From the IMG/VR virus record IMGVR_UViG_3300034108_000283, positions 1-64,000 of that record: a stretch of 64,000 bases of DNA. One strand, 5' to 3'. A program made the position numbers and the translations under genes. The notes below the pieces were generated by a model. That model saw only the letters and a program-made list of their open reading frames with translations. It had not been told where the DNA came from and did not search any database. The DNA is from a virus. This document shows, piece after piece, positions 3,389-23,069 of the stretch. How positions within the stretch are numbered: position 1 is the stretch's first letter; each line of letters begins with the position of its first letter.

Positions 3389-6300
3389 TGGCAGAAGAAA
3401 CACCTTTTAGTCCTTTAGATTCTTTAGGACCAGAATACGGAGGCATTAATGCTCCTAGATTAGATGCACAAGGCTTATCACCATTTGAAGGTGATATGCT
3501 TACGGATCCAAAAATTAATTTTCCAAAGCCGGAGAATTACTTTCCTGTGTTACCACAGGTTACAAACTTAGATAGACCTAATAGTTCTATTGAAAGAAAT
3601 GTTGTAAGAACTCCTGCAAACAATCCTAGTATAAAACCTAAAAAAGTTTCTGGAGCTCAGAATAAAGCAAGTATAACAAAATCTTTAGATGCTTTCTTTC
3701 AAGCTAATCAGAATAAAGACAACTATGCTAAAATCTATTCATACAATGCTGGACCGGATGGTAATGCATTTTATAAAAGATATGCAGCATATGGTCAAGA
3801 AACATTTGACAAGATTGGTTTTCATCCATTAAGAGATAATGAATCAAACTTTAATGCTCAGACATCTAGATGGGATGACTTTTCTAGAATGATGACTCAC
3901 TCATTTGTTCCTTTGTTTTCTAGAGGTTTTGTATCCGGACCAAAGAGTTTATGGAAAATGGCTCATGGAGACTTTACAAGTTCAGACAGAGAAGATGCAA
4001 GAGCATATGAAGAAGCAGCAGCAATAGGTCAATCATCTAAAGGTGGTGTATTTGGATTTGCAAATAATACTATGATGAACTTTGGGTATACAGCAGGTAT
4101 TATAACTGAAGCTGTTGCTGAAGAAATTGCTGGTGCATTACTTGCTGCCCCTACAGGTGGTGCAAGTTTATTTGCAACTACTGCTAATATAGCAACTAAA
4201 GTTCCTAGAGCTTTAAGCTTAACACAAAGAGCAGTTAAAGGATATGATGCTGTAAAGACTACTCTTAAAAGTTTTGACAGTATAAATGCTGCAAGAAAGT
4301 TTTGGAATGCTGCAGCTTCTAATAAAACAGTATCTGCAATAGGTAGAGGTCTTAATCCTTTAGAGAATAGTTTTGAAGCATTTAAAGCTATTAAAGGCAC
4401 TGACAATATAACTGACTTAGCAGCACTTTCAAAAACTGCTGGTGGTTTTTATAGAGATATTAGAAAGATAAACATGGCTTTATCTGAAGCTAGACTTGAA
4501 GCTGGTATGGTTGAGAATAAAGTATATGATAAACTTTATCATGAAGCATACATGGCAAAAGGTGAACCACCATCAAACAAAGAACAAGCTGAATTAGAAA
4601 AACAAGCTAAGGATGCTTCATTGGAAACTTTGTTAGCTAATACAGCTCTCATATATGCATCTAACTCAATTACATTTAATAACATCACATCACCAAGAGG
4701 AGGTTTAAGAAACTTTATTAAATCTACTACTGATGATATATATGAAATAGCTGCAAGAGAAGGTCAGAAAGACTTTGGTAAACTTGGTAAAGTTGTTTAT
4801 GATAAAACAGCTAGACAGTTTGAGTTACAAAAGTCTAATCTAAAAACTTGGGCAAAAGGTTGGAGAAAAGATCCTATACATAAATCAATTGGTAGTACAA
4901 TAGGATATTTTAAAGCTAACTTTACAGAAGGTATTCAAGAGAACTTCCAGGAAGTAATTGCTCAGGCAAATGAAAGATACTATATAGATAGTTACAAAAG
5001 CCCTACTCTACAAACACAGTTGTATTCTAAAGGAGTAATTAAAGCTAATCTAAAACCTAAAGCTGATTACTATGCACAAGGTTTAAAAGATCAGTTTAAT
5101 TCACAAGGTCTTGAAACATTTGCATCTGGTTTCTTTATGGGAACATTAGCATCTCCATTAAATGCAGCTATTCCTTTTTTAAGTTCCACATATAATAGAA
5201 CTTTTGATAAAGAAGGTTTTGCTAAATGGAAAAAAGATCAAACAGCAATTGCAGAAAATCTTGTTAAAGATTTGAATGATGTTAAGATGAAAGACTTTAT
5301 GTCTGATAGAGTTATGAATACAGGAGCTCAAGATTTGATTAGCAAGATTAGAATAAATGCTAGTAAGAAAGGAGGTCTAGATGCTGAGACAGAATCATTT
5401 GTAAATGCAGTAAATACCATGAGAAGAACCGGTACATCTGGTATCTTTATGGATACTCTTAAGTCATTTAAACAATATGATGACAAAGAGTTTGCAGATG
5501 CAATGAAAATTACTGAAGAACAAGTTCCTAAGTATAGAGGTAGAGTTGATAAAGCTATTGCTAGATTAAATAACATCAATAATATTTTTGAGAATGGTGA
5601 AAGAAAACACCCTAATCCTGTAAGCTTAGATAATTTAGGTGAAGAAGGAACACCTGAGTATGATGCTAAACTAGCTTTATATAAAGGTTGGAATGATTCT
5701 CTCCGGAATTATGCATTTTTCAATGAAGCATATAATGATGTTAAAGGAAGAAGAGCTAGTATCCAAAATAAGTATAATACTAATCCAAACTTTCAAAGTT
5801 TAAGCAGCACTGATAAATCTTTATTGTTTCAACCTGAAAGAATAATTGATGAGGTAAGACTGTTAAACACACAATTAGCATTAGAAAAAGATGGAGAAAA
5901 CAATGCTAAAAAAGTAAATGAATTAGAAAGCAGAATCCAACTTCTTTCTGAATTTGCAAAAGCTCACAAAGGATTTGATGAATACTTTAACAGAGCTGAT
6001 GAAGATAAAGTAAAGATTGTAAAAGAAGAGCTTCAGAAAAAGACAGGTAAAGAACCAACTGCAGAAGAAATAGCAGAAGAGTTAGACAAAAGAGTTGGGT
6101 CACTGGATAATGAAGAACTTAAAATGTTCCATTTACTTAATCTTAAGAATGCTCATAATAATTATTTAAAAACTCTTTCTAAAGATAAAGGTGATTACAT
6201 ATTTGATGAGCAAGCTGATGAAGCATTTGAACAACTTGTAGATTACTATAAACTTGGGCAAGAAGGAAAAGCTCTAGCTACGTATGTAGATATCATGAAC

Positions 6301-10445: not shown

Positions 10446-13400
10446 ATGAGTATAACATGTGCCCTTTCTGATTCTCAGATTGAAAAACTATTTAAACTAA
10501 CATATAAAAGAATGAAAGATTCATTAGACTCAGGTACTGAGTTTGATGCTGAAGATTTCATGAAAGATTTGTTTAATAAAATTGCTGGTAAACAAGATGC
10601 AGAAACTGCAGCTAAGTTTATTCAGCATGTTCCGGCCATGGTTTATGCATTGTCTGCTAAATCTGCTTTTAAAAACTTAGATTTTAAAGATACTTTAAAT
10701 GAGTCTGCTATTAAAAAATTAAGTAGACAGTTTAAATCAGATACAGGGATCAGTGATGTTGTTAGTAGATATCAAGTAAAGCCAGATGTTTTACCCGGTA
10801 AAGTTGAAAGAGAAGCTGATAATGCTAATAAGATAGAGCTTGATCAAATTCCAATACCAGAAGAACCAGTAACTGTAATTGAGTCAGATAGATTTAAAAC
10901 ATTAAGTCCTTGGGGAGGAACTCTTCAGAATTACATTAAGATTAATCCTAATAAAAAATCTGATGGTTCTATAGTAATTGAAGAAATTAATCCAGAGAAA
11001 GCTCATATCATAAAGACTTTTGAAAACATAAAACAAATACAAGCCATGAGTGACCTCACTGATGGTATTATTTATGAAGGTAAAAAGTTAATGTTCCGTG
11101 CAGAAAATTTAGACTTATTTGCCAGAGGTGAAAACCTAGACATGCTTGATAAAGAAACTAGAGATGAGATAGCTGCTTCTAGAACAATTATCAATAACAA
11201 ATCTAAAGTTGATCCTGCAATTGCACAAGTAAATCAAAGAGTTATACTTGTTCTTACTGATGAGTTTGGTAATACTATCTATGTAGACAATGAAGGTAAG
11301 ATAACTGATAAAGAGACTGGAAAGTTAGTATACCAGTTCATGAGAACTGTAAGAAAACAAGGTAATAAATATACTGTAAAAGACATCTATAATCAAGAAG
11401 ATCAAGTTCTTTCTCCAGAAGAGTTTGCAAGAATGACTTACAATCCAGAAATAGATGGAACAAAGAGAGAGTACTTTGATAAAGTTGTAGCAGAACAACA
11501 AAAGCAGATGAAAGAGTTGTATGACCTACAACAGAAAGCATTAAAGAATGAAGCAAAGTTATTACCGGTTACAGGTATTACTACAGGTATATCATCTAAT
11601 TTAAGTTCAACAACAATATTGTTAAATGAGCTTACAAAGTTTCCTGGTATAACTGCTGATGTTTATAGTACAATTGAAACTGCACCAAGAGATACAGCTA
11701 CACTAAGAAAAGGTGAAGCCACAATTGAGATTAACGGAAACACTTTTGCAATTGACAGACCAAGAATAACAAAAGATATTGCAGATGAAGTGGCTTCAGT
11801 ATTAACTAATCCTAATATTCCTTTAGCAGCTAAAAAAGGTTTTGTAGATCAGTTTTTACCAAGTTCCTTAGATATCCAAGGTTCTGCCAAAAAGTATAAA
11901 TTTAGTTTTGATAAAGATCTAAAATACTTATACTTCAATGAGTATAAAGATTTTAAATTTAAAAACCCTGTAGATGAGAAAGGAATATTATTAACAGATA
12001 CTAATTTAAAAAAACTATCCGCTGAAGAAGTTAAAAACATTAAAGATAGAATAGTAAATGTTTTAATGAATGGTGGAATTAAGAATAATATAGAAGGTCA
12101 ATCAAATGCTGTATTCATATCATATGATAGCAGCAAGTTTAACAAAAACTACCAAAGACTATCTGAGGATGGTTCAAGATTCATTGATAAATCATATAAT
12201 GAATTCTTAAGTACTTTACCAGCTGAAGTAAAAATTATAAATGCAGACCCCGGATTCTATAACTATTCAGTTAGTTACACTACTCCTGATAGTACATTAG
12301 GTAAAGTAATTGAATCTAACACAAAGCAATTAACCTTTGATGAAGAGTTAGCATTAGAGGCTGAGAAACTTAAAAATGATCCGGCTACTATAGAATCTAA
12401 TAGAATTATAAATCAAGCTAATAGTGAAGCTTGGAGACTTCTTGTTGAGTCAGATCCAACCGTTAAAGTAAAACCTGTATCAGAACCAGTATTAATTGTA
12501 TCATATTTAAGAAATCAGATTGCTACAAATCCAACATATACAAAAGAGTTTGTTACAAAAGTATTTGATAACATACTTGGAGCTTATTGGAGACAAATTG
12601 GAGATGCTCAATCTAAACTTATTAATGATGAGATTAACAAAAGATTTCCAGAACCTATTAATTCTAAGGAACTCACTAATGCAGAAACATTACAAATCTT
12701 AACTGAACCAGGTGCACCAGCTCCTGAAAGTACAGATTCTGCAGTAAGTGAAATATTTAAATCAAATGGTAAGATAGACTTAGATTCTATACCAGGTTCA
12801 TTTGATAGAAAAGGATTTGACAAAGAAAGAATAAATCCTCTTAAAGTTCTACGGGCTAAGAAGTGGTGGAACAGTGAAGAGATTAAACCTTTAAGAGACC
12901 TTATCTCATTTGAGCATGCAGCTAATCTTGTTAACTCAGATGTGTTTGCAACATTTATAGTTAATGCTGCATATATAGCTGATACAAATGATAAAATGGG
13001 TACTATTAAAGTGAATAAGCTTAATGGTTCATTTTACCAAAATCTTACCTCATACCATGAGGCGTGGCATGTTTTCTCTCAGTTGTTCTTAACTAAGGAA
13101 CAAAAGATTGATCTATATACAGAGCTTCAGAATTATACTGATTCTAATGGTAATCAACCTTATGCAAATAAAAAGTTTAAAGAACTAGAAGAAATGCTAG
13201 CTGAAGACTTTAGAAATTATGTTAAGTCCGGTAAAGCAAAACAAAATGCTCCAAAAAGAAATACAATCTTTAGACAAATACTAAACTTCTTAAAACAGCT
13301 ATTTGGTAAGTATCTTAATAAGTTTAAGAAAGAAGATATTCAGTTAGATAGCCTGAATTCTCCAATGGCTAAAGAGTTATTTGATAACTTATTCCTTGGT

Positions 13401-16400
13401 AGATTTAATAGTTATCAAGCTTCTGTAGACAATGCTTTATTATATGATTTAGATAGAGGAGTAAGACAGGTAAATAATCCAAAAGAAGATGCTTTAAGTC
13501 CTCAAGATGGTAATCAAATGGTTAAGACCATAGATAGTATCTTCTCTGAAAAAATTGATGATATCTACGACACTAGAGTTATTGAAGCTAGAAAACAGAT
13601 TGCTGAGACAGCACTTAAAGAAGGAATAAAAGTAACCCCTGAGTATATAGAACAACAATTACATACAAAAGGTCTTAAGTCTGCAAGTGTATTAATGCTT
13701 ACTGATACTGCAAAGAGAGCTTGGTTATATGGTGAAACAAAGGACAGACTTCAGGAAATACTTGAAAGTGAACAAGCTAAGTTAGAAAAAGTTAAAGGTC
13801 AAAAAGACTTTAATGAGTATGCTACATTAAAAGAAATTTCTGATAATGCGGTAGCTGTAATGAAGAATAAGAAAGGAGAAGATAAGTACTTCTTCTTAGC
13901 ATCTCAGATTGATGACTTCAGCAAACTAGACCCATCTTTAAAACGTGGTGAAAGAGTTAGAGGAGAAGACTATAAAGGCAGTATTAAAATACTTGGTGAT
14001 TTCTACAAACATAAAGAAATAACCAAAGATGGAAGACCTGTTGATATTGTTATCATTTCTAAAATACAAGATGCTGAATTACAGTTTCAGAATTATAAAA
14101 ATGCAGAGAAACAAAAAGCATATACAGAAGTTATATTAAATAAGAATGCTAAAAATATTCTTGTTGATGACAAACAACAATTAGTTAGAGATAACATAAG
14201 AATCTTACAAAATACATTGGCTAACTGGGGTGATGAAAAGAGTGGTATGGTTAAGTATCATATGGAAAACACTGATTATGAAATTGGTAAAAATAAGTTT
14301 GACATAGAAGTACAAAGCCAATCAAAACAAGAGATTGACCAAGACGGTAATGTTATAGATGAAACTGAAGTTACTGAAGGTGCAACAACAGATATTGAAG
14401 CTAAAACAGGTACTCAGTCTCTTCAGCAAATGATGAGTAAAGAAACTACTTATCTTATCAAAAGTTTATTTAAAGTAAACCCTGATGGTACTACACCAAC
14501 AGATAGATTTGGAGTTAAAGAAAGAGCAGACTTTAATAAAGTATTTACTATTCTAGCCAAGACTATAGGCGGAGAAAGAGATAGATACAAAGCATATGCA
14601 AAGCTAGCTGAGGAATCTGAAAAGTTTCCTGAGCTTAAGCAGTTATATGAAAAGAAATATCCAGACCCGAACAATATTACAAATACACATGAGATGGATA
14701 TCAGTGTAAGGTTCTGGCAAGACTTTGGTAAATTCAGAGTTAAGTACATGCAGTTGTTTGCATTTAATGATTCTGACAGTAATACTATAGACTTTAGAGT
14801 TAAAGAATCTTCTATTGCTATTGACAATACTCTAAATAGATGGATGGCTTTATTCAAAAGTACACAAGCTACTTCATATATTAACAAAGGTAAAGACAAT
14901 GTTTCTACATTAAACTTAGCTAATCTAGTAAAAGACTTTGGTACTAAAGGAGAACTAGCAAAAAAAGATGCACTAGACTTTGCTAGAGCAATGGCTATTG
15001 ACTTAGATAACAATGACAATATTAAAAAAGAACTAGCAGACAACTTTGACTACTATGGTCTAGCTTATATATTTGATATTGTTAAAGGTTTCAATGAGAT
15101 AAATAACTTAAAAGAAGGTGATCCGAAATTAACAGCTGAAAGAGTTAAGTATCTTGATATGTTTAAGAAGAATCCAATTGATGTTCTTAAAAATATTATT
15201 CCTGTTGGTGTATTATCTACTCTTAAAGGTTCAGTAAAAGAGCTTACACAGTTAAAGAGACTTGCTGAATTACAATCTAAGTATGGTTTTGACTCAGCTA
15301 CAACTGGTGTTATCCGTGCCAACGGTAATACAGGATACCAAGAAATGAATTGGAGTTCTGCTGCATCTTATGTATATGCATTAAATGAAGTTACAGAAAT
15401 GCATCAGCTATGGACAGATCCAAGATATAGTTATATGTCTTACCTGAATCCAGCTATTAATCCACACACACTTCAACTAAGCATTATTAAAAGTTTGTTT
15501 GATGCTAATGGTAAAAAGATACCAGGTAAAAGTGTTTTATTAATGGCAGTAGATGGTACATCTATGTCTAATAAAAAGACAGTTACCAAAAATGGAAGAC
15601 AAGTTGAGATAGAAGAAGCAGAAGGTAATACTACTACTGAACTAGATCCACAGTCTAAGTTTTTACAGGAATTACATACAATGCTTTTAGGTGGTGTAGC
15701 TGAATTCCCAAGACACTCTGAAAAGAAATTCTCATATGGTATTAAGGTTGTAGGAGGTATAGAGGGAAGTTCAGTAGGTTATCTTTTACAAGGCACAGAT
15801 AAAAATCTTTATGTAGACATGGATATGTTTACTAAAACAGATGAAAAAGGTAGACTTAATGGTGAAATCTATGCTATTGGTAATAACATACTTCCATATA
15901 TCCAGGGTGAGTTTGATAGAATTAAAAAATTCAGAGGAGCAAACAAAGAAGAATACTTAAAAATTACTGGGTATAACAAATTAGTTGATGATGGTAATGG
16001 TAATGATGTACCTGCCGGCTCAGTATTTTCTGCATTTGATTCTGTACTTAAACAAGAAACTAAGAATCAGTTGTATGCATTAGCTGATGAACAAATAGAT
16101 GTTCCTTTAGTAGATTACTTAAGAGGTAAGCCATTAAGAAAAATGATGGCAGATGATATCATAGACTACTTTAATGAAAAAACTAATGAGTTAGACACTC
16201 TGTATTTTCAAAAAATGCCATTCTTGTCTAAGTCTATTTTTGAAAAACTTGGATATAAAGCTGATGAATTAACTAGTAATAAAATCAATAGTCTAAAATT
16301 AGATAAGACATTAACTGATAGGATACTAAAAGCATATTTGTATAATGACTTTATTCATAAGTATGAGTCAGCAATGCTTGTATATGGTGATCATGCCCAG

Positions 16401-19400
16401 TGGGGTCATGATAAAGAAGACTGGACCAAACGTATACCTGGTTTAACTTCAGATGGTACCGGGTTCCTTTTTGATAAAGGAATGAAAAGCTTCATTAAAG
16501 ATAACTTCAACAAAGTTACATATGCAAGCTTAAACATGCCTGAGATACCTGCAGACAAAAAGTTTATATATGGTGAGACTCTAAACACAGCAGTTATAAA
16601 AGATGCTGTGAGAGATTCATTATATCTAGATGATATGGTCAAAGCATGGAAAGAAGAATATGCCGGAACCTATGATTCTAAAACTATAGATGAGCTTATT
16701 AAAAAAGATATTAAGCCATTCATGGGAATGAAAGAAGGTGATGGTATGGCATATATGACTTTTGATGCATATAGAACTTTACACAAAGCTGGAGGAAAAG
16801 GATGGACACTGGCTCAAGAAAGCCTTTACCAAAGAATCATCAAAGGAGAAAAAGTAAATCCTAAGACTGTAAAAGATTACTTCCCTGTATATAAGTTACA
16901 TTACTTTGGAGCTTTACAAAACAATATTGCACCAGTAAGAGCAATGCATAAATTTGCTGTGATACCTTTAATCCCGGGAGTTAATGCACAAGAAGGTTCA
17001 GAGTTAGATATATTACATAAAAAAATGTTAAAAGAGAACATTCAATATGTAGCATTTGACTCATGTTCTAAAGGAGCTAACTTAACATCTAATGGTAAAG
17101 TAGATAATATCTTTACTAGTAAAGATGATAAAGCTATTAAAGAGGATGCTGAATTTACAGTGAATCCTATTTACATGGCAAACTTAAAAGAGGTAACAGT
17201 TATTAATGAACACTTTAAGGGCTCTCTTCCTATTGCTACACAGACCAGAGGTATCTTACTTGATAACCTATATAGAGAAGGTAAATTAATCAATGAGAAA
17301 AACAAACCAGTACTTGATGAGTATTTATCTGCAGTAAAAGATTACTCAGAAATATTAAAAGAAGAATTACTAAGTGAAATTGGCTTTGAGTTTATAGATG
17401 GTAGAGCTGTTGGTAACTTAAAACAGTTTGTTGAAGTTATCAGAGATGAATTAAAAAACAGAGATACTCCTGAACACCTTATCAGATTGCTCAACACTGC
17501 TAATGACAGAGAGCTAGCAATGGATTTATCATTACATCCAGAGGCTGATACAGTTGAAAAGCTTATCATGAGCTTTTTACAGAATGGGTTAATTAAACAA
17601 AAAACTAATGGAGAACCATTAGTACAAACTCCAACTACCTTTACTAATGGTATTTGGGATTCTCAATACACTGCTTTAACTGATCTTGAAGAAATTAAAA
17701 AGTGGATGGGTTCAAACACTCTACCATTCTATTTAAGAAATGCAGGAGAAAGAAGTACTGAGATGAAAGTTGCTGTTGCATTGCAAGGTGAGTTTATTAA
17801 ACTCTTAAATGGCAAGCACACAGATGAAGAAAAGATTGGTACTATTGATAGACTTAATGAAGTTATCAAAGATCCTAAATGGTTAGAGGCTAATAAGGAT
17901 GCTGTAACAATGTTTGGTCCAAGGATTCCTAATGATGCTACCAATACAATTGAAGCAGCAACAGTATGGCATTTCTTACCTGAAGCATTTGGTAACAGTA
18001 TAATAGTACCAACTGAGATAGTTGCAAAAGCTGGATCTGACTTTGACGGGGATAAGTTATTCATGACTTTCACTAACATAGATAATGAAGGTAAAGCTAT
18101 TTCTAAAGGAGTAGATAAATTTAAAACTCTACTTAAAGAAACTCAGGCACTTGAAAAAGCTAATAAACCTATAAAAGGAAGACCTTCTTCAAGAGCTCTT
18201 ATTGCTGAGCAGAAAAAATATTTACAGAACAGATTTAAAAATGCTGCTGTAGAAATCTTGATGTTGCCGGAGAACTATGCATACTTGACTAAACCAAATG
18301 GAACTTACCTGGTAGACAAGTATGTAGCTGAGTTAGAAGAAAACAAAAAAGGTTACAATAGATATAAGAACACTCATGGTCAGGCACCTAAACTTTCTGC
18401 TGCTGATGAAAACGGTAAAAGAAAAACTGTCATAAGTCCTACTAGAGTACTTGAGGCTACTTATAACTTGTATAAGCATGATGCTAACTTATCTCTTGAA
18501 CCTTCACTAGGTATCATGGCCAAGTTAGCTAAGAGCCACCCTATATACAAATCAGTTGGTGCTTTAATGCCAGCTACATATAGAGCTTCTGCTTTTATTG
18601 AAGCATTAAACAAAACAATAGAAACAGGTTATACATTACCTGTAGTAATGAGATTTGCTCATAACAAAACTAGGAATGCTAAGGGTCAAGAAGTTATATC
18701 TTTGTCCGGAGAAAGAACTCAAAGTGGTTCCCGTATATCAGATGTAACATCACATGCTTTACAAGGTATCTTAGATAGAGCTAAAGAATCATTTCCATTT
18801 GAATTAAAACTGGTTCCAGAAGCTATGGATGTATTTAGTTACATGCTTCAGGCCGGAGTTGATGAGGAACAAATATTCTTTTTCTTAAACCAACCTCTTA
18901 TTGCTGAGTACTTTGAAAAACAAAAGTTAAAAGAAAGTGCTTATTCTAAAATAGTTGGTAGTAAAGAGAAAGGTAGTCCTGCAAATAATATCATAAACAA
19001 TTTGCTTAAGAACTTTGACCAGGCTAGTTTGAATCCATTATATGATAGAATTAATGTAGCTAAATTAAGATATGTTCTAAATGATTTAAAAACTAAAGGT
19101 GAAGACCAAAAGTATTATTACAAAATAAAAAAAGAATCTGGTGTTAAAGAAATTACATTAAAAGACTTACAAGCTAATATAGATAGTGGTGGTTTGGCTC
19201 CTGAAAATATTGAGAGAATATCTACCATGCCTAATATGAGTAATGATTCTACAGTTTATTTTTACAGCAATGCTATAAACAGTACAGAGAACTTTGCTTT
19301 TGCAACTGAAGTATTGTCAAATGAATACTTACCAAAAGGTGATGTTCCTACAAAAACTTTAAAAGATGGTGTAAAAGATAACAAGACAATGAAAGCTCTT

Positions 19401-22400
19401 GCATTATTCATGAACTATCTTGAACTGGAAAGACAGTTTAAAGGTATGAATGATTTGCAACAAACATTCTCTCCGGATACCGGCAAGCTTACTACAGTAC
19501 AACAGGTACTTAAAAGAATGGAAGCTTATGAAGAATTAAGAAAGAGTAAATCAATAGATCAAGACTTCTTAAACAGATTACTTAAAGAATCTATACTATC
19601 TTCATTTAACCAAGATGACTTAATTAAACAGCTTACCGAGCCTTTGTTTAATCTAAGACTTAATCCTGAGATAACTAAATATATTAGTGATGCATTTGTA
19701 GATCAGTCTAAAGCATCTAGAATAAGAAGTAATCCTACATTTGGTAAAGGTATAAATGGTCAAGAAAGATTTAGTACTTTGTTTAACAACGGAGTAATAA
19801 ACTACATCTATCAAAACTATTTGTCTAACTTCAGCAATGAAAAAGGAGAACTAGTAAATATCCCGGATACTTATAAAGATAACAGACCAGTTATCAAAGT
19901 AGATAATTTAGACACAGATGTTGAAATAGTAGAAGAAGGTATAGCAATTAACACCCGCAGAATTGAAACTGATTATGCAAACAAAGCATACTTAGAAACA
20001 AGTGTGGCTGAAAATAACTATGGTTCTAGAGGCCTGGATACATTTAAAATCAAAGATGATCCATTCCAGACATTAGCAAGTTATTACAGATATGTTATTG
20101 CTAGAGAGTCTAATAGAGTAAATCACCCAATTGAATCTCTTGAAAATAATAGTGAATTTATGAGACGGGTATATGCAATGGGTAATGCCAATGATGCATA
20201 TGAAAGCTATATATCTGAAAGAGCACTAGGAGCTAGTTTCAACAATAAGTATATCATGGGTAAAACCAAATATAGTTATTCTGATTCTTTGTTGAATTTA
20301 ATTAATGAGTTTGGTGATACACTTAAAGTTAATTATCCTATAACAGCTCAATTATCTCCGGGAACAAACACAGAAGGTGCTAAAGTTCTTCAGTTAAATA
20401 ACCAGAAAGAAGCCCAAGGAGAATTAGCTTCAGTATATTATAACAATCTTAGAAACTTAGCTGACCCAAGTGTAACTAAAGTTCAGAATAAAAACAAAAC
20501 TGATGAAGAAAATGAAAGTGATAACCAAAGAATATCTGAGATGTTTAATTTGTTCTCACTTAATATGTTCTATCAACATGGTGTAGGTAAAACAAGATTA
20601 GGTTTTATTAAAGCATTAGATCCTGTACAATACAAAGATATTGTTGAAGGTGGATCTAAAGCATTCCTTAAGAACTACTTGAGCACTGAAATACTAGATG
20701 AGATATTCAACACAGTTGTAAGCATGGATAAGTTTAAGAACTATCTTGTTTCTCCGGAAGGATATATCCATAGTGATTTAGCAACAGCAGAGGTATCTAA
20801 ACCAACTAATGATGGTACATTAGAAACATTTGATGATAGTGAAGGAGAAGATGAAGTTCTAGTAAGATTAATAAATCAAGAAGATGTTAATGCATTTAAT
20901 GATTATGTAAAAAAATCAGGAGGTAAAAGACCTGAGAAATTCTTTACATCTAAAACTTTATACCCTGCATTCTATAACTCAGCTACTGGTAAAAGAGAAG
21001 GCATGCCTCAGACTGCTATATGGATTAAAAACCAATACGGTACATATGACATGCTGGATCAAGAGACCGGTGAGTTCTACTATGAGAATGTAAACCTTGC
21101 AACAGGTATGCAGATCACTAAGAAAGAAGATGTTCAACCTACTGAACCTACTGAAGGATCAACTCAGTTATCAGAATATACAAATCATTCTGGCGGAGCT
21201 CTAGGTTCAGATACACAATGGGATGTAATTGGTAAAGAGTTTGGAATGGTTAATAACCAACATTACTATACAGGAGTAATATCTGAAAAGAATGCACCTC
21301 TTGGTAATGTAGACATTACTGATAAACCAATTGCAATAGAAGGTGCTAAAAAGGTAGCAGATGCGGCTAGAGAAATGTGGGGTTATAAGTATAACACTAT
21401 GAAAGACCAGAGACTTATTAGAAACTGGGCTCAAGTTGCTAATTCTGATGCAGTATTTGCTATCGGTACATTAGGTAAAGAAGGTGACATATGGAAAGGT
21501 GATGAAAAATCTGCTGAACCAAGAAAGCTTCTCAAGTTTGCTGTTCAAGGTGGTACCGGATATGCTGTAGAGATGGCAATACAAGCTGGTAAACCAGTGT
21601 ATGTATTTGATCAAGTAAGAAACCAATGGTATAAAAATATCAAAGGTCAGTGGTCTAAGTCTGAAGTTCCTACCCTTACTAAAAACTTTGCAGGTATTGG
21701 CACTAGAGAAATAAATGAAGCTGGTAAACAAGCTATTAGAGATGTTTATAAAAACACTGCTTCTCAAGCTCCTACTCAACCATCTACTACTAGTACATTA
21801 GAATCAGTAGCAGATATTCCACAAAATAAAGTATCCGGAATAAATTCTTATGGTTCTACAGTAACAGCTAACAATGAAGCTATCAAAGCACTTGGTAAAA
21901 ATCCACATTCTATTGATATGATAGAGGCAGGATTTAGAACAAGAACAACCAGAAGTGAATCTGAAATGGCTAAGTATGCTATTAAAGTTGGGGATACTAT
22001 AAAACACTTTGGTAAATCTGCAGATGGTTCAACTAAAACTGTTTATGCTAAGGTAACTGCTATACATCCTAAAGGTTCTGAAGGTTGGAAAGGTACTTGG
22101 AATAAAGAAGGTTGGAGAGCTGAAGATGTGAATGTTATAGATAGATTTAAAGACGGTGCTGCTGCAATAGAGTTTGAAGTAATTCAACCATCTACTGAAC
22201 CATCTGAAGTTCAAGAAGGAGTAGAAATATCATCTAATGCTAAAGGTTTAGCTGCTGCTCTAACTAATCCAACTGAGTTAGCTAAATCTAAAGGTAATCT
22301 AACTCAGTCTTATCCTGTTGAATTTAGAGGAAAGACATATAAAGATGCAGAAGCTGCGTATCAAGCATTAAAATCTACAGCTACTAAAGATGAAGGACCT

Positions 22401-23069
22401 AACAGTACTTATAACCTTATGGTAGACATTATTAAAGCTAAGCTTCAACAACATCCAAGATTAGTTAGTGAAATAACTAAACAAGGAGGATCTGCTTGGA
22501 TACTTTCTTCTACACATCAACCTACTAAACAAAATAGTGTATGGGAAACTGGCGGCAAAAACTGGTTTATTAAAGCTCTTAATGATGCTTATTTATCCAC
22601 TACTCAACCAGTTTCTCAACCTACTGTTAAACCTACTAAAGCACCAGTAAGCCCAGCTCCAGCAGATAGTATAGAGAATGATATGAAAGTATATGCTTAT
22701 CTTTTAAATGAAAGAGATGGTGTTCAACCTCAATATTTTAAAGCTGGTCCAAATGAAAATAGAGTCTACAATTTAAATAAGTTTGGTAACTATGACTTAA
22801 TAGATGCTGTAACGGGTGAAATATATATGAGAAACATTAATATGGAGACAGGTAAACAGGAAACTGAACCATTTCTTAATTCTCCTGTGGATCCTGTAGC
22901 TAAACAAGCTGCCCTTGATAAACTCATCACTCAAAGAGCTACAACTAACATAGAAGAACAATTAGCAGTAAAGGGTTATGATATTAATGATATAATCAAT
23001 AATTTAGCAAATGCTAAGACTCAGGAAGACTTTAATAAAATAACTAAAATACTTGATAAATTATGTTAG
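10446..23069 (+). CDS. 4207-aa polyvalent virion RNA polymerase protein
   Basis: This is the largest gene of the window. The motif SDFDGDKLF (D2532, D2534, D2536) is the metal-binding loop of single-chain double-psi-barrel RNA polymerases (YonO, crAss-like virion RNAP, related to QDE-1). A DSCSKG segment (K2209) about 320 residues earlier fits the first barrel, and DGMAYMTFDAYR before it is also typical. HEAWH at 871-875 is a zincin metallopeptidase motif. The C-terminus adds a SLOG domain (SGGALGSD near 3582, FAGIGTRE at 3748-3755), an ASCH-like domain (RTRTTR at 3831-3836, TWNKEGW near 3888) and a NADAR-like domain (about 3925-4050), joined by Pro/Thr/Ser-rich linkers. Two copies of a 30-residue module (3529-3558 and 4111-4140) flank this cassette. 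The RNAP probably enters with the DNA to transcribe early genes; other roles are inferred. Confidence 0.92.
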   Translation: MSITCALSDSQIEKLFKLTYKRMKDSLDSGTEFDAEDFMKDLFNKIAGKQDAETAAKFIQHVPAMVYALSAKSAFKNLDFKDTLNESAIKKLSRQFKSDTGISDVVSRYQVKPDVLPGKVEREADNANKIELDQIPIPEEPVTVIESDRFKTLSPWGGTLQNYIKINPNKKSDGSIVIEEINPEKAHIIKTFENIKQIQAMSDLTDGIIYEGKKLMFRAENLDLFARGENLDMLDKETRDEIAASRTIINNKSKVDPAIAQVNQRVILVLTDEFGNTIYVDNEGKITDKETGKLVYQFMRTVRKQGNKYTVKDIYNQEDQVLSPEEFARMTYNPEIDGTKREYFDKVVAEQQKQMKELYDLQQKALKNEAKLLPVTGITTGISSNLSSTTILLNELTKFPGITADVYSTIETAPRDTATLRKGEATIEINGNTFAIDRPRITKDIADEVASVLTNPNIPLAAKKGFVDQFLPSSLDIQGSAKKYKFSFDKDLKYLYFNEYKDFKFKNPVDEKGILLTDTNLKKLSAEEVKNIKDRIVNVLMNGGIKNNIEGQSNAVFISYDSSKFNKNYQRLSEDGSRFIDKSYNEFLSTLPAEVKIINADPGFYNYSVSYTTPDSTLGKVIESNTKQLTFDEELALEAEKLKNDPATIESNRIINQANSEAWRLLVESDPTVKVKPVSEPVLIVSYLRNQIATNPTYTKEFVTKVFDNILGAYWRQIGDAQSKLINDEINKRFPEPINSKELTNAETLQILTEPGAPAPESTDSAVSEIFKSNGKIDLDSIPGSFDRKGFDKERINPLKVLRAKKWWNSEEIKPLRDLISFEHAANLVNSDVFATFIVNAAYIADTNDKMGTIKVNKLNGSFYQNLTSYHEAWHVFSQLFLTKEQKIDLYTELQNYTDSNGNQPYANKKFKELEEMLAEDFRNYVKSGKAKQNAPKRNTIFRQILNFLKQLFGKYLNKFKKEDIQLDSLNSPMAKELFDNLFLGRFNSYQASVDNALLYDLDRGVRQVNNPKEDALSPQDGNQMVKTIDSIFSEKIDDIYDTRVIEARKQIAETALKEGIKVTPEYIEQQLHTKGLKSASVLMLTDTAKRAWLYGETKDRLQEILESEQAKLEKVKGQKDFNEYATLKEISDNAVAVMKNKKGEDKYFFLASQIDDFSKLDPSLKRGERVRGEDYKGSIKILGDFYKHKEITKDGRPVDIVIISKIQDAELQFQNYKNAEKQKAYTEVILNKNAKNILVDDKQQLVRDNIRILQNTLANWGDEKSGMVKYHMENTDYEIGKNKFDIEVQSQSKQEIDQDGNVIDETEVTEGATTDIEAKTGTQSLQQMMSKETTYLIKSLFKVNPDGTTPTDRFGVKERADFNKVFTILAKTIGGERDRYKAYAKLAEESEKFPELKQLYEKKYPDPNNITNTHEMDISVRFWQDFGKFRVKYMQLFAFNDSDSNTIDFRVKESSIAIDNTLNRWMALFKSTQATSYINKGKDNVSTLNLANLVKDFGTKGELAKKDALDFARAMAIDLDNNDNIKKELADNFDYYGLAYIFDIVKGFNEINNLKEGDPKLTAERVKYLDMFKKNPIDVLKNIIPVGVLSTLKGSVKELTQLKRLAELQSKYGFDSATTGVIRANGNTGYQEMNWSSAASYVYALNEVTEMHQLWTDPRYSYMSYLNPAINPHTLQLSIIKSLFDANGKKIPGKSVLLMAVDGTSMSNKKTVTKNGRQVEIEEAEGNTTTELDPQSKFLQELHTMLLGGVAEFPRHSEKKFSYGIKVVGGIEGSSVGYLLQGTDKNLYVDMDMFTKTDEKGRLNGEIYAIGNNILPYIQGEFDRIKKFRGANKEEYLKITGYNKLVDDGNGNDVPAGSVFSAFDSVLKQETKNQLYALADEQIDVPLVDYLRGKPLRKMMADDIIDYFNEKTNELDTLYFQKMPFLSKSIFEKLGYKADELTSNKINSLKLDKTLTDRILKAYLYNDFIHKYESAMLVYGDHAQWGHDKEDWTKRIPGLTSDGTGFLFDKGMKSFIKDNFNKVTYASLNMPEIPADKKFIYGETLNTAVIKDAVRDSLYLDDMVKAWKEEYAGTYDSKTIDELIKKDIKPFMGMKEGDGMAYMTFDAYRTLHKAGGKGWTLAQESLYQRIIKGEKVNPKTVKDYFPVYKLHYFGALQNNIAPVRAMHKFAVIPLIPGVNAQEGSELDILHKKMLKENIQYVAFDSCSKGANLTSNGKVDNIFTSKDDKAIKEDAEFTVNPIYMANLKEVTVINEHFKGSLPIATQTRGILLDNLYREGKLINEKNKPVLDEYLSAVKDYSEILKEELLSEIGFEFIDGRAVGNLKQFVEVIRDELKNRDTPEHLIRLLNTANDRELAMDLSLHPEADTVEKLIMSFLQNGLIKQKTNGEPLVQTPTTFTNGIWDSQYTALTDLEEIKKWMGSNTLPFYLRNAGERSTEMKVAVALQGEFIKLLNGKHTDEEKIGTIDRLNEVIKDPKWLEANKDAVTMFGPRIPNDATNTIEAATVWHFLPEAFGNSIIVPTEIVAKAGSDFDGDKLFMTFTNIDNEGKAISKGVDKFKTLLKETQALEKANKPIKGRPSSRALIAEQKKYLQNRFKNAAVEILMLPENYAYLTKPNGTYLVDKYVAELEENKKGYNRYKNTHGQAPKLSAADENGKRKTVISPTRVLEATYNLYKHDANLSLEPSLGIMAKLAKSHPIYKSVGALMPATYRASAFIEALNKTIETGYTLPVVMRFAHNKTRNAKGQEVISLSGERTQSGSRISDVTSHALQGILDRAKESFPFELKLVPEAMDVFSYMLQAGVDEEQIFFFLNQPLIAEYFEKQKLKESAYSKIVGSKEKGSPANNIINNLLKNFDQASLNPLYDRINVAKLRYVLNDLKTKGEDQKYYYKIKKESGVKEITLKDLQANIDSGGLAPENIERISTMPNMSNDSTVYFYSNAINSTENFAFATEVLSNEYLPKGDVPTKTLKDGVKDNKTMKALALFMNYLELERQFKGMNDLQQTFSPDTGKLTTVQQVLKRMEAYEELRKSKSIDQDFLNRLLKESILSSFNQDDLIKQLTEPLFNLRLNPEITKYISDAFVDQSKASRIRSNPTFGKGINGQERFSTLFNNGVINYIYQNYLSNFSNEKGELVNIPDTYKDNRPVIKVDNLDTDVEIVEEGIAINTRRIETDYANKAYLETSVAENNYGSRGLDTFKIKDDPFQTLASYYRYVIARESNRVNHPIESLENNSEFMRRVYAMGNANDAYESYISERALGASFNNKYIMGKTKYSYSDSLLNLINEFGDTLKVNYPITAQLSPGTNTEGAKVLQLNNQKEAQGELASVYYNNLRNLADPSVTKVQNKNKTDEENESDNQRISEMFNLFSLNMFYQHGVGKTRLGFIKALDPVQYKDIVEGGSKAFLKNYLSTEILDEIFNTVVSMDKFKNYLVSPEGYIHSDLATAEVSKPTNDGTLETFDDSEGEDEVLVRLINQEDVNAFNDYVKKSGGKRPEKFFTSKTLYPAFYNSATGKREGMPQTAIWIKNQYGTYDMLDQETGEFYYENVNLATGMQITKKEDVQPTEPTEGSTQLSEYTNHSGGALGSDTQWDVIGKEFGMVNNQHYYTGVISEKNAPLGNVDITDKPIAIEGAKKVADAAREMWGYKYNTMKDQRLIRNWAQVANSDAVFAIGTLGKEGDIWKGDEKSAEPRKLLKFAVQGGTGYAVEMAIQAGKPVYVFDQVRNQWYKNIKGQWSKSEVPTLTKNFAGIGTREINEAGKQAIRDVYKNTASQAPTQPSTTSTLESVADIPQNKVSGINSYGSTVTANNEAIKALGKNPHSIDMIEAGFRTRTTRSESEMAKYAIKVGDTIKHFGKSADGSTKTVYAKVTAIHPKGSEGWKGTWNKEGWRAEDVNVIDRFKDGAAAIEFEVIQPSTEPSEVQEGVEISSNAKGLAAALTNPTELAKSKGNLTQSYPVEFRGKTYKDAEAAYQALKSTATKDEGPNSTYNLMVDIIKAKLQQHPRLVSEITKQGGSAWILSSTHQPTKQNSVWETGGKNWFIKALNDAYLSTTQPVSQPTVKPTKAPVSPAPADSIENDMKVYAYLLNERDGVQPQYFKAGPNENRVYNLNKFGNYDLIDAVTGEIYMRNINMETGKQETEPFLNSPVDPVAKQAALDKLITQRATTNIEEQLAVKGYDINDIINNLANAKTQEDFNKITKILDKLC
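21030..21119 (+). repeat. copy 1 of internal 30-residue protein module
   Basis: Encodes residues 3529-3558 of the giant RNAP protein. Aligned without gaps to copy 2, 15 of 30 residues are identical, including G-x-YD, TGE, N-x-N and TG. It lies just before the SLOG-ASCH-NADAR cassette. Confidence 0.8.
22776..22865 (+). repeat. copy 2 of internal 30-residue protein module
   Basis: Encodes residues 4111-4140 of the giant RNAP protein and lies just after the NADAR-like domain. Together with copy 1 it brackets the whole accessory cassette. Confidence 0.8.

Follow-up and report, generated by a model that had tools for sequence, protein, structure and literature searches.

What are small domains of apparent nucleotide and ADP-ribose biology doing at the end of a giant phage RNA polymerase, and how did they come to be there? 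The question is raised by a stretch of viral DNA of 64,000 nucleotides (nt; positions 1 to 64,000 of IMG/VR record IMGVR_UViG_3300034108_000283), here called the window, in which a single open reading frame (ORF) encodes a protein of 4207 amino acids (aa). Comparison with relatives shows that the C-terminal stretch of this protein is a swappable cassette slot, whose contents differ from phage to phage even where the polymerase has hardly changed, and that cassettes are transferred even between deeply diverged polymerases. Our preferred reading, to which we give a probability of roughly 0.6, is that the slot carries an exchangeable set of injected effectors, most likely for counter-defence, shuffled by recombination at linkers.

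The carrier and its cassette slot

By sequence, the 4207-aa protein belongs with the crAss-like virion RNA polymerases (RNAPs). A core profile built from ten relatives has a single match in the PDB, the DNA-dependent RNA polymerase 6vr4 (E 2.6e-25), which we take to be the enzyme of crAss-like phage phi14:2, and the core contains a catalytic DFDGD motif (about 18039-18053) of the DxDGD type. The same 115.9-kb record encodes a terminase large subunit and a portal protein, and none of the plasmids searched for the polymerase region carries it. Pfam gave no match above cut-off for the whole protein or for the separate domains of the window. An earlier note, made from the DNA letters, had described a cassette fused to the virion RNA polymerase at 21030-22865, coordinates that correspond exactly to residues 3529-4140, and the match to 6vr4 bears this fusion out. 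The note's idea of a polyvalent injected protein is also supported, as one ORF combines such unlike activities as an RNAP with SLOG, ASCH-like and NADAR-like domains. In studied crAss-like phages the polymerase is packaged in the virion and injected (PMC7886860, PMC10136315), that of phi14:2 being a virion component that is translocated along with the DNA (PMC7886860); by homology to these RNAPs, the 4207-aa protein is probably packaged and enters the host in the same way. The features are laid out as follows, with the evidence in brackets; the modules were located with a hidden Markov model (HMM).

10446-23069, + strand: ORF of the giant predicted crAss-like virion RNA polymerase, 4207 aa (ORF; core profile against 6vr4)
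16563-19025, + strand: conserved polymerase core (alignment A3), residues 2040-2860 (core alignment and profile; DFDGD)
20883-21122, + strand: upstream module copy, Mod1, which includes 21030-21119 of the earlier note (module HMM)
21132-22673, + strand: 514-aa slot for exchangeable cassettes, lying between Mod1 and Mod2 (comparison with relatives)
21132-21167, + strand: linker 1 (VQPTEPTEGSTQ), swap breakpoint relative to L036 (alignment ends)
21174-21761, + strand: SLOG cassette, cpYpsA/DprA-like (PHROG_768; 16-sequence alignment)
21756-21800, + strand: linker 2 (TASQAPTQPSTTSTL), swap breakpoint (alignment ends)
21807-22187, + strand: ASCH-like cassette with RTRTTR and TWNKEGW (motifs; YqfB as best structural match)
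22173-22220, + strand: linker 3 (FEVIQPSTEPSEVQEG; begins with the last residues of the ASCH-like domain), swap breakpoint (alignment ends)
22221-22595, + strand: NADAR-like cassette with the invariant His of its STHQP motif (homologue alignment; profile links)
22593-22664, + strand: linker 4 (LSTTQPVSQPTVKPTKAPVSPAPA) (linker analysis)
22680-22868, + strand: downstream module copy, Mod2, which includes 22776-22865 of the earlier note (module HMM)
22869-23066, + strand: C-terminal segment, which together with Mod2 is the part found in a separate 250-309-aa gene in some relatives (gene comparison)

That Pro/Thr/Ser linkers join the domains was already part of the earlier description, and it holds: 10 of the 11 linker-motif matches in the protein lie at residues 3567-4066.

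Turnover of the slot among relatives

We sampled relatives in three ways, by cassette, by flanking backbone and by polymerase core, and compared 49 distinct complete tails (individual loci are given as L numbers). Recognised cassettes are carried by 40 of the 49, in 33 different domain strings; beyond the core the tails are 575 to 2426 aa long, and the order and position of cassettes vary freely. Counted by protein, the recognised types include SLOG (17), 2OG-Fe(II) oxygenase (15), NADAR (13), ART-like (11), DUF4326-like (10), ASCH (9) and helicase (8). Pfam directly supports the oxygenase, NADAR, ART and helicase types in relatives; DUF4326-like, kinase-like, macro-like and zincin are names from motif reading, without profile confirmation.

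Replacement is seen between close relatives. Among the non-identical pairs whose cores agree to at least 95%, six of seven have different cassette sets. The window and L036 are 98.2% identical in DNA over the 10,706 nt up to the first linker and then carry different cassettes, having in common beyond that point only a linker-bounded ASCH cassette and the end of the protein. L052 and L053 match at 99.96% over 10,626 nt and differ once the first cassette begins, and L055, 99.8% identical to L052 over 11,044 nt before it too diverges, holds a third set on the same backbone. The same is seen for L105 and L107 (98.9% over 10,422 nt, with different cassettes afterwards), and between L120 and L127 a SLOG cassette is present in one and absent from the other, at a linker. 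The reverse pattern, of like cassettes on unlike polymerases, is also seen: a NADAR cassette is 85-90% identical on cores that are 21-28% identical (L015, L017, L019, L020), an ASCH cassette 95% identical on a core 37% identical (L034), and a SLOG cassette 86% identical on a core 29% identical (L007). This exchange does not appear in the earlier note, because seeing it needs comparison.

Breakpoints cluster at the linkers. Within slots, 50% of the unique alignment ends fall no more than 10 aa from a linker, compared with 15% (sd 4%) for random positions, and the commonest 12-mers shared across 15 slots are linker codons (CTCAACCTACTG, ACTCAACCTACT), found in up to 10 of the 15. L133 has an extra cassette of about 150 aa between two 12-bp GCTCAACCAACT repeats, where L134 has one near-copy, GCTCAACCAGCT. 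The pattern fits recombination between linker repeats, for which the flanks and shared cassettes may have provided further crossover points.

The cassettes are not simply drifting. Between the window and its relatives, the ratio of nonsynonymous to synonymous substitution rates (dN/dS) is 0.05-0.34 for SLOG, 0.08-0.23 for ASCH and 0.07-0.20 for NADAR, similar to that of the polymerase core (0.09-0.24). Such low values indicate purifying selection, so the cassettes are maintained and are functional in some way. A search of 84,980 bacterial and archaeal species genomes with short-peptide patterns, which detect close relatives only, found no close relative of the cassettes.

Identity of the three cassettes

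Unlike the polymerase core, which with its DxDGD motif is shared with the phi14:2 RNAP (6vr4), the window's cassettes are without a match in the PDB by sequence, whether SLOG, ASCH-like or NADAR-like. Of the three calls in the earlier note, that of SLOG is well supported: the cassette matches PHROG_768, 'DprA-like', at E 6.2e-8, single members of the family give weak matches to several SLOG-type Pfam models (cpYpsA, LDcluster4, DprA), and the GG(A)xGxD and GGT motifs are kept in most of 16 SLOG sequences. At the position of the LOG-type catalytic Glu in the GGT region, read by eye, the window and its closest SLOG relatives have Glu and many others have Gln, so some SLOG cassettes may bind rather than cut.

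Two N4-like phages, Pylas and PT15-A5, have a SLOG of the same family in their virion RNAPs; in Pylas it occupies residues 984-1158, just before the region that matches N4 virion RNA polymerase structures (1392 onward). As the catalytic folds of N4-type and crAss-type polymerases are not homologous, this SLOG has been joined to virion polymerases on more than one occasion. A giant coding sequence (CDS) of gut crAssphage cr109_1 (L079, NC_055892) likewise contains a related SLOG. The 13-kb CDS owes its annotation as a DprA-like protein to this C-terminal SLOG-like domain, an example of how such proteins risk being misnamed in databases. The SLOG stretch of cr109_1 contains four stops under translation table 11 but is open when TAG is read as Gln.

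The ASCH-like and NADAR-like calls are each moderately supported. The best Foldseek match to an AlphaFold model of the ASCH-like cassette (pLDDT 68) is E. coli YqfB (9kyf; probability 0.94, TM-score 0.46, although E is 0.1). The catalytic residues of YqfB are Lys21, Thr24, Arg26 and Glu74 (PMC6972931); in a motif alignment the Thr and Arg are kept and the Glu is probably kept, and the position of Lys21 is Arg in seven of seven ASCH homologues.

The case for NADAR runs through profiles. The family phrog_1017 is matched by 13 of 14 NADAR-like homologues and also, at 6e-21, by the clear Pfam NADAR cassette of L052, and a profile-profile comparison links the window's cassette to clear NADAR cassettes from the same slot of relatives (probability 76%, E 2e-5). 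The Pfam NADAR model itself matches 4 of the 14 members, with a best E of 0.032. The His of STHQP is invariant in all 14 sequences and may be equivalent, by a weak alignment, to the His that replaces the last-strand Glu/Asp in phage gp30.3-type NADAR proteins (PMC11125620); T4 gp30.3 and the window's cassette have no pairwise similarity. NADAR is the weakest of the three domain assignments. In one relative (L029:6092-11002) a NADAR cassette lies not in the polymerase but in the large protein directly upstream of it, so other large proteins may also accept cassettes.

What the cassettes may do

Every function considered for the cassettes, whether biochemical or in counter-defence, is a prediction from domain resemblance. 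Under the injected-effector reading, small self-contained domains, mostly resembling proteins that bind nucleotides, ADP-ribose or nucleic-acid bases, or enzymes that act on them, and strung on Pro/Thr/Ser linkers, would travel into the cell on the polymerase and would most likely blunt host defences in the first minutes, ahead of any phage gene expression. SLOG would bind or degrade NAD-derived signals, NADAR would remove ADP-ribose from guanine in phage DNA, and ASCH would act on a modified base or nucleotide. For SLOG and NADAR proteins, an action on NAD-derived signals or on ADP-ribosylated bases has been argued (PMC9503650, PMC11125620). Cassettes would be gained, lost or replaced by recombination at a recurrent linker-coding repeat, helped by homology in the flanking polymerase and by shared cassettes; different phages would carry different sets because, as we propose, the linker-coding DNA is itself a recurrent, recombining repeat. 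An injected counter-defence set is the most economical reading, and an arms race would be expected to lead to such fast replacement on a carrier that itself stays constant.

Several points weigh against this reading. The first concerns the structure check that the earlier note had named beforehand: for the NADAR-like model Foldseek returned no significant match, and NADAR 8bau, although it has the highest TM-score among the matches listed (0.46), has an E of 9.3. Second, the YqfB tetrad is apparently incomplete in the window, with Arg at the position of the catalytic Lys21 by motif alignment, so a YqfB-type reaction is doubtful and should not be assumed. Third, L114, L115 and L130 have near-empty tails, and the array is thus dispensable in some lineages. 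Finally, breakpoints at linkers are no proof of recombination driven by linkers, since any shuffling puts the ends between domains.

The cassettes could instead serve the early metabolism or transcription of the phage, in nucleotide supply, RNA or DNA repair, or processing, and be swapped because they are redundant or host-specific. This explanation is unlikely, but it has points in its favour: the slot rides on an early-acting polymerase, and a number of cassettes look like enzymes of repair or metabolism (AlkB-type 2OG oxygenase, helicase, P-loop kinase-like, LOG-type SLOG). However, the very fast replacement on near-identical backbones and the concentration of NAD and ADP-ribose domains fit an arms race better, and the ART domains suggest modification of host targets. 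Those same ART-type domains (PF18760, E 3e-10 in L052) lend some weight to a less probable idea, that the cassettes are directed not at host defence but at competing phages, in superinfection exclusion, or are toxins for host takeover, as such domains modify the host in known phages; T4 Alt is a capsid-packaged, host-modifying ART (PMC5512222). The window's own set has no ART, however, and SLOG and NADAR are predicted or shown processors of ADP-ribose that are argued to counter host systems (PMC9503650, PMC11125620).

The duplicated module

The earlier note saw the segment as bracketed by a duplicated module, and the duplication is real. The two 30-residue stretches (3529-3558 and 4111-4140) share 15 identities, and their similarity extends to about 60-80 residues, with an ungapped local score of 102 against a mean of 31 in 500 shuffles (sd 5.5, maximum 56). 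In the whole 115.9-kb record the module HMM matches these two copies and nothing else. The two copies flank the array throughout the window's clade, and on the polymerase tree the two-module state clusters around that clade.

This constancy is what favours the further proposal that the module served to insert the cassettes, or marks where they went into an ancestral C-terminal domain, a proposal that is now largely refuted and which we regard as very improbable. Equally diverse arrays exist with only one module (L022, L058, L101, L120, L127) or with none detectable by the HMM, which may leave diverged copies hidden (L104, L105, L107, L109, L119), and the breakpoints are in the linkers, not the modules. 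The note had also suggested looking for a single module in homologues that lack the insert; what these have is a near-empty tail without the module pair, not an empty site with one copy. In five relatives (L006, L105, L107, L115, L131) the module and C-terminal segment are in a stand-alone gene of 250-309 aa just downstream of the polymerase gene, and L075 has the same stand-alone gene on a locus without its polymerase gene. Because the module is in a separate gene in these relatives, the C-terminal part of that gene appears to have been fused, and the module duplicated, in the window's clade. The simplest history would be fusion of the C-terminal part of the downstream gene to the polymerase together with a duplication of the module, in either order. 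The bracket is therefore secondary: the module merely frames the slot in the window's clade. The stand-alone gene (L006:8588-9505, L105:15709-16635) has an N-terminal domain of its own; in L110 this domain is instead part of the large gene that follows.

Lastly, metagenomic contigs with shared repeats and cassettes can mislead assemblers, but assembly chimeras are a very unlikely explanation of the differing sets, since reading frames are intact, the linker repeats are short (12-mers), the cassettes are under purifying selection and the same arrangements recur in separate datasets (L010/L011; L001-L003; L008/L009; L022-L025).

Relation to known systems

Polyvalent injected proteins, phage domain mosaicism (PMC5512222, PMC10684548) and SLOG-NADAR fusions (PMC9503650) are already known. 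Among the closest parallels are the polyvalent proteins of Iyer et al. 2017 (PMC5512222), large chains of unlike enzymes predicted to enter the host with the DNA. These include zincin, ART and helicase-type domains, the N4 RNAP was among the search queries, and mosaicism reaches up to 50 domain combinations in a Helicobacter family; crAss phages, SLOG and NADAR were all looked for in the text of the paper and are not mentioned there. The present system differs in having a fixed polymerase with one defined slot, the set in which is replaced between near-identical genomes with breakpoints at a linker repeat.

Phage SLOG domains fused to NADAR and/or Macro domains are predicted to counter NAD-derived immune signals (PMC9503650, the text of which does not mention crAss phages); here, in contrast, they are on a virion RNA polymerase and are shuffled with many other domains. 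Recent shuffling of fragments between phage proteins, some anti-defence proteins included, has been described (PMC10684548), with receptor-binding proteins and endolysins as the clearest recent cases and crAss phages unmentioned. The crAss-like polymerase is known to be encoded among the large multidomain proteins of the transcription block (PMC7886860), and the Crassvirales papers that we compared (including PMC7886860 and PMC10136315) do not describe an effector slot. More widely, we found no report of a cassette slot on a crAss-like polymerase, or of its turnover, in the open-access literature, subscription journals being outside the search.

Crass-like phages rank with the most abundant of known viruses. 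Natural pairs that differ solely in the contents of a defined slot, carried on a probably injected protein, make their early meeting with host defences testable. The contents of the slot form a catalogue of candidate counter-defence domains, and the polymerase is a place where gene exchange at the level of domains can be followed, with its exchange points visible in the DNA. We tentatively suggest, at a little short of even odds, that the C-terminus of the crAss-like virion RNAP is a general-purpose, rapidly reloaded rack, supplied through the linker-DNA repeat from a shared pool of effectors without close bacterial matches, and that the N4-type virion polymerase, to which it is unrelated, came to such an arrangement independently.

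Two further features of the polymerase were noticed. A second variable stretch lies towards its N-terminus (12312-12683 in the window, residues about 623-746; residues 549-669 in L044), and in L044 and L047 it holds the ART-like cassette that is found in the C-terminal slot of L058. At the other end, a Cys lies among the final ten or so residues of nearly all the polymerase C-termini read (ILDKLC, YKKSC, CKGL, DTGDTC; position 23066 in the window), although their sequences differ.
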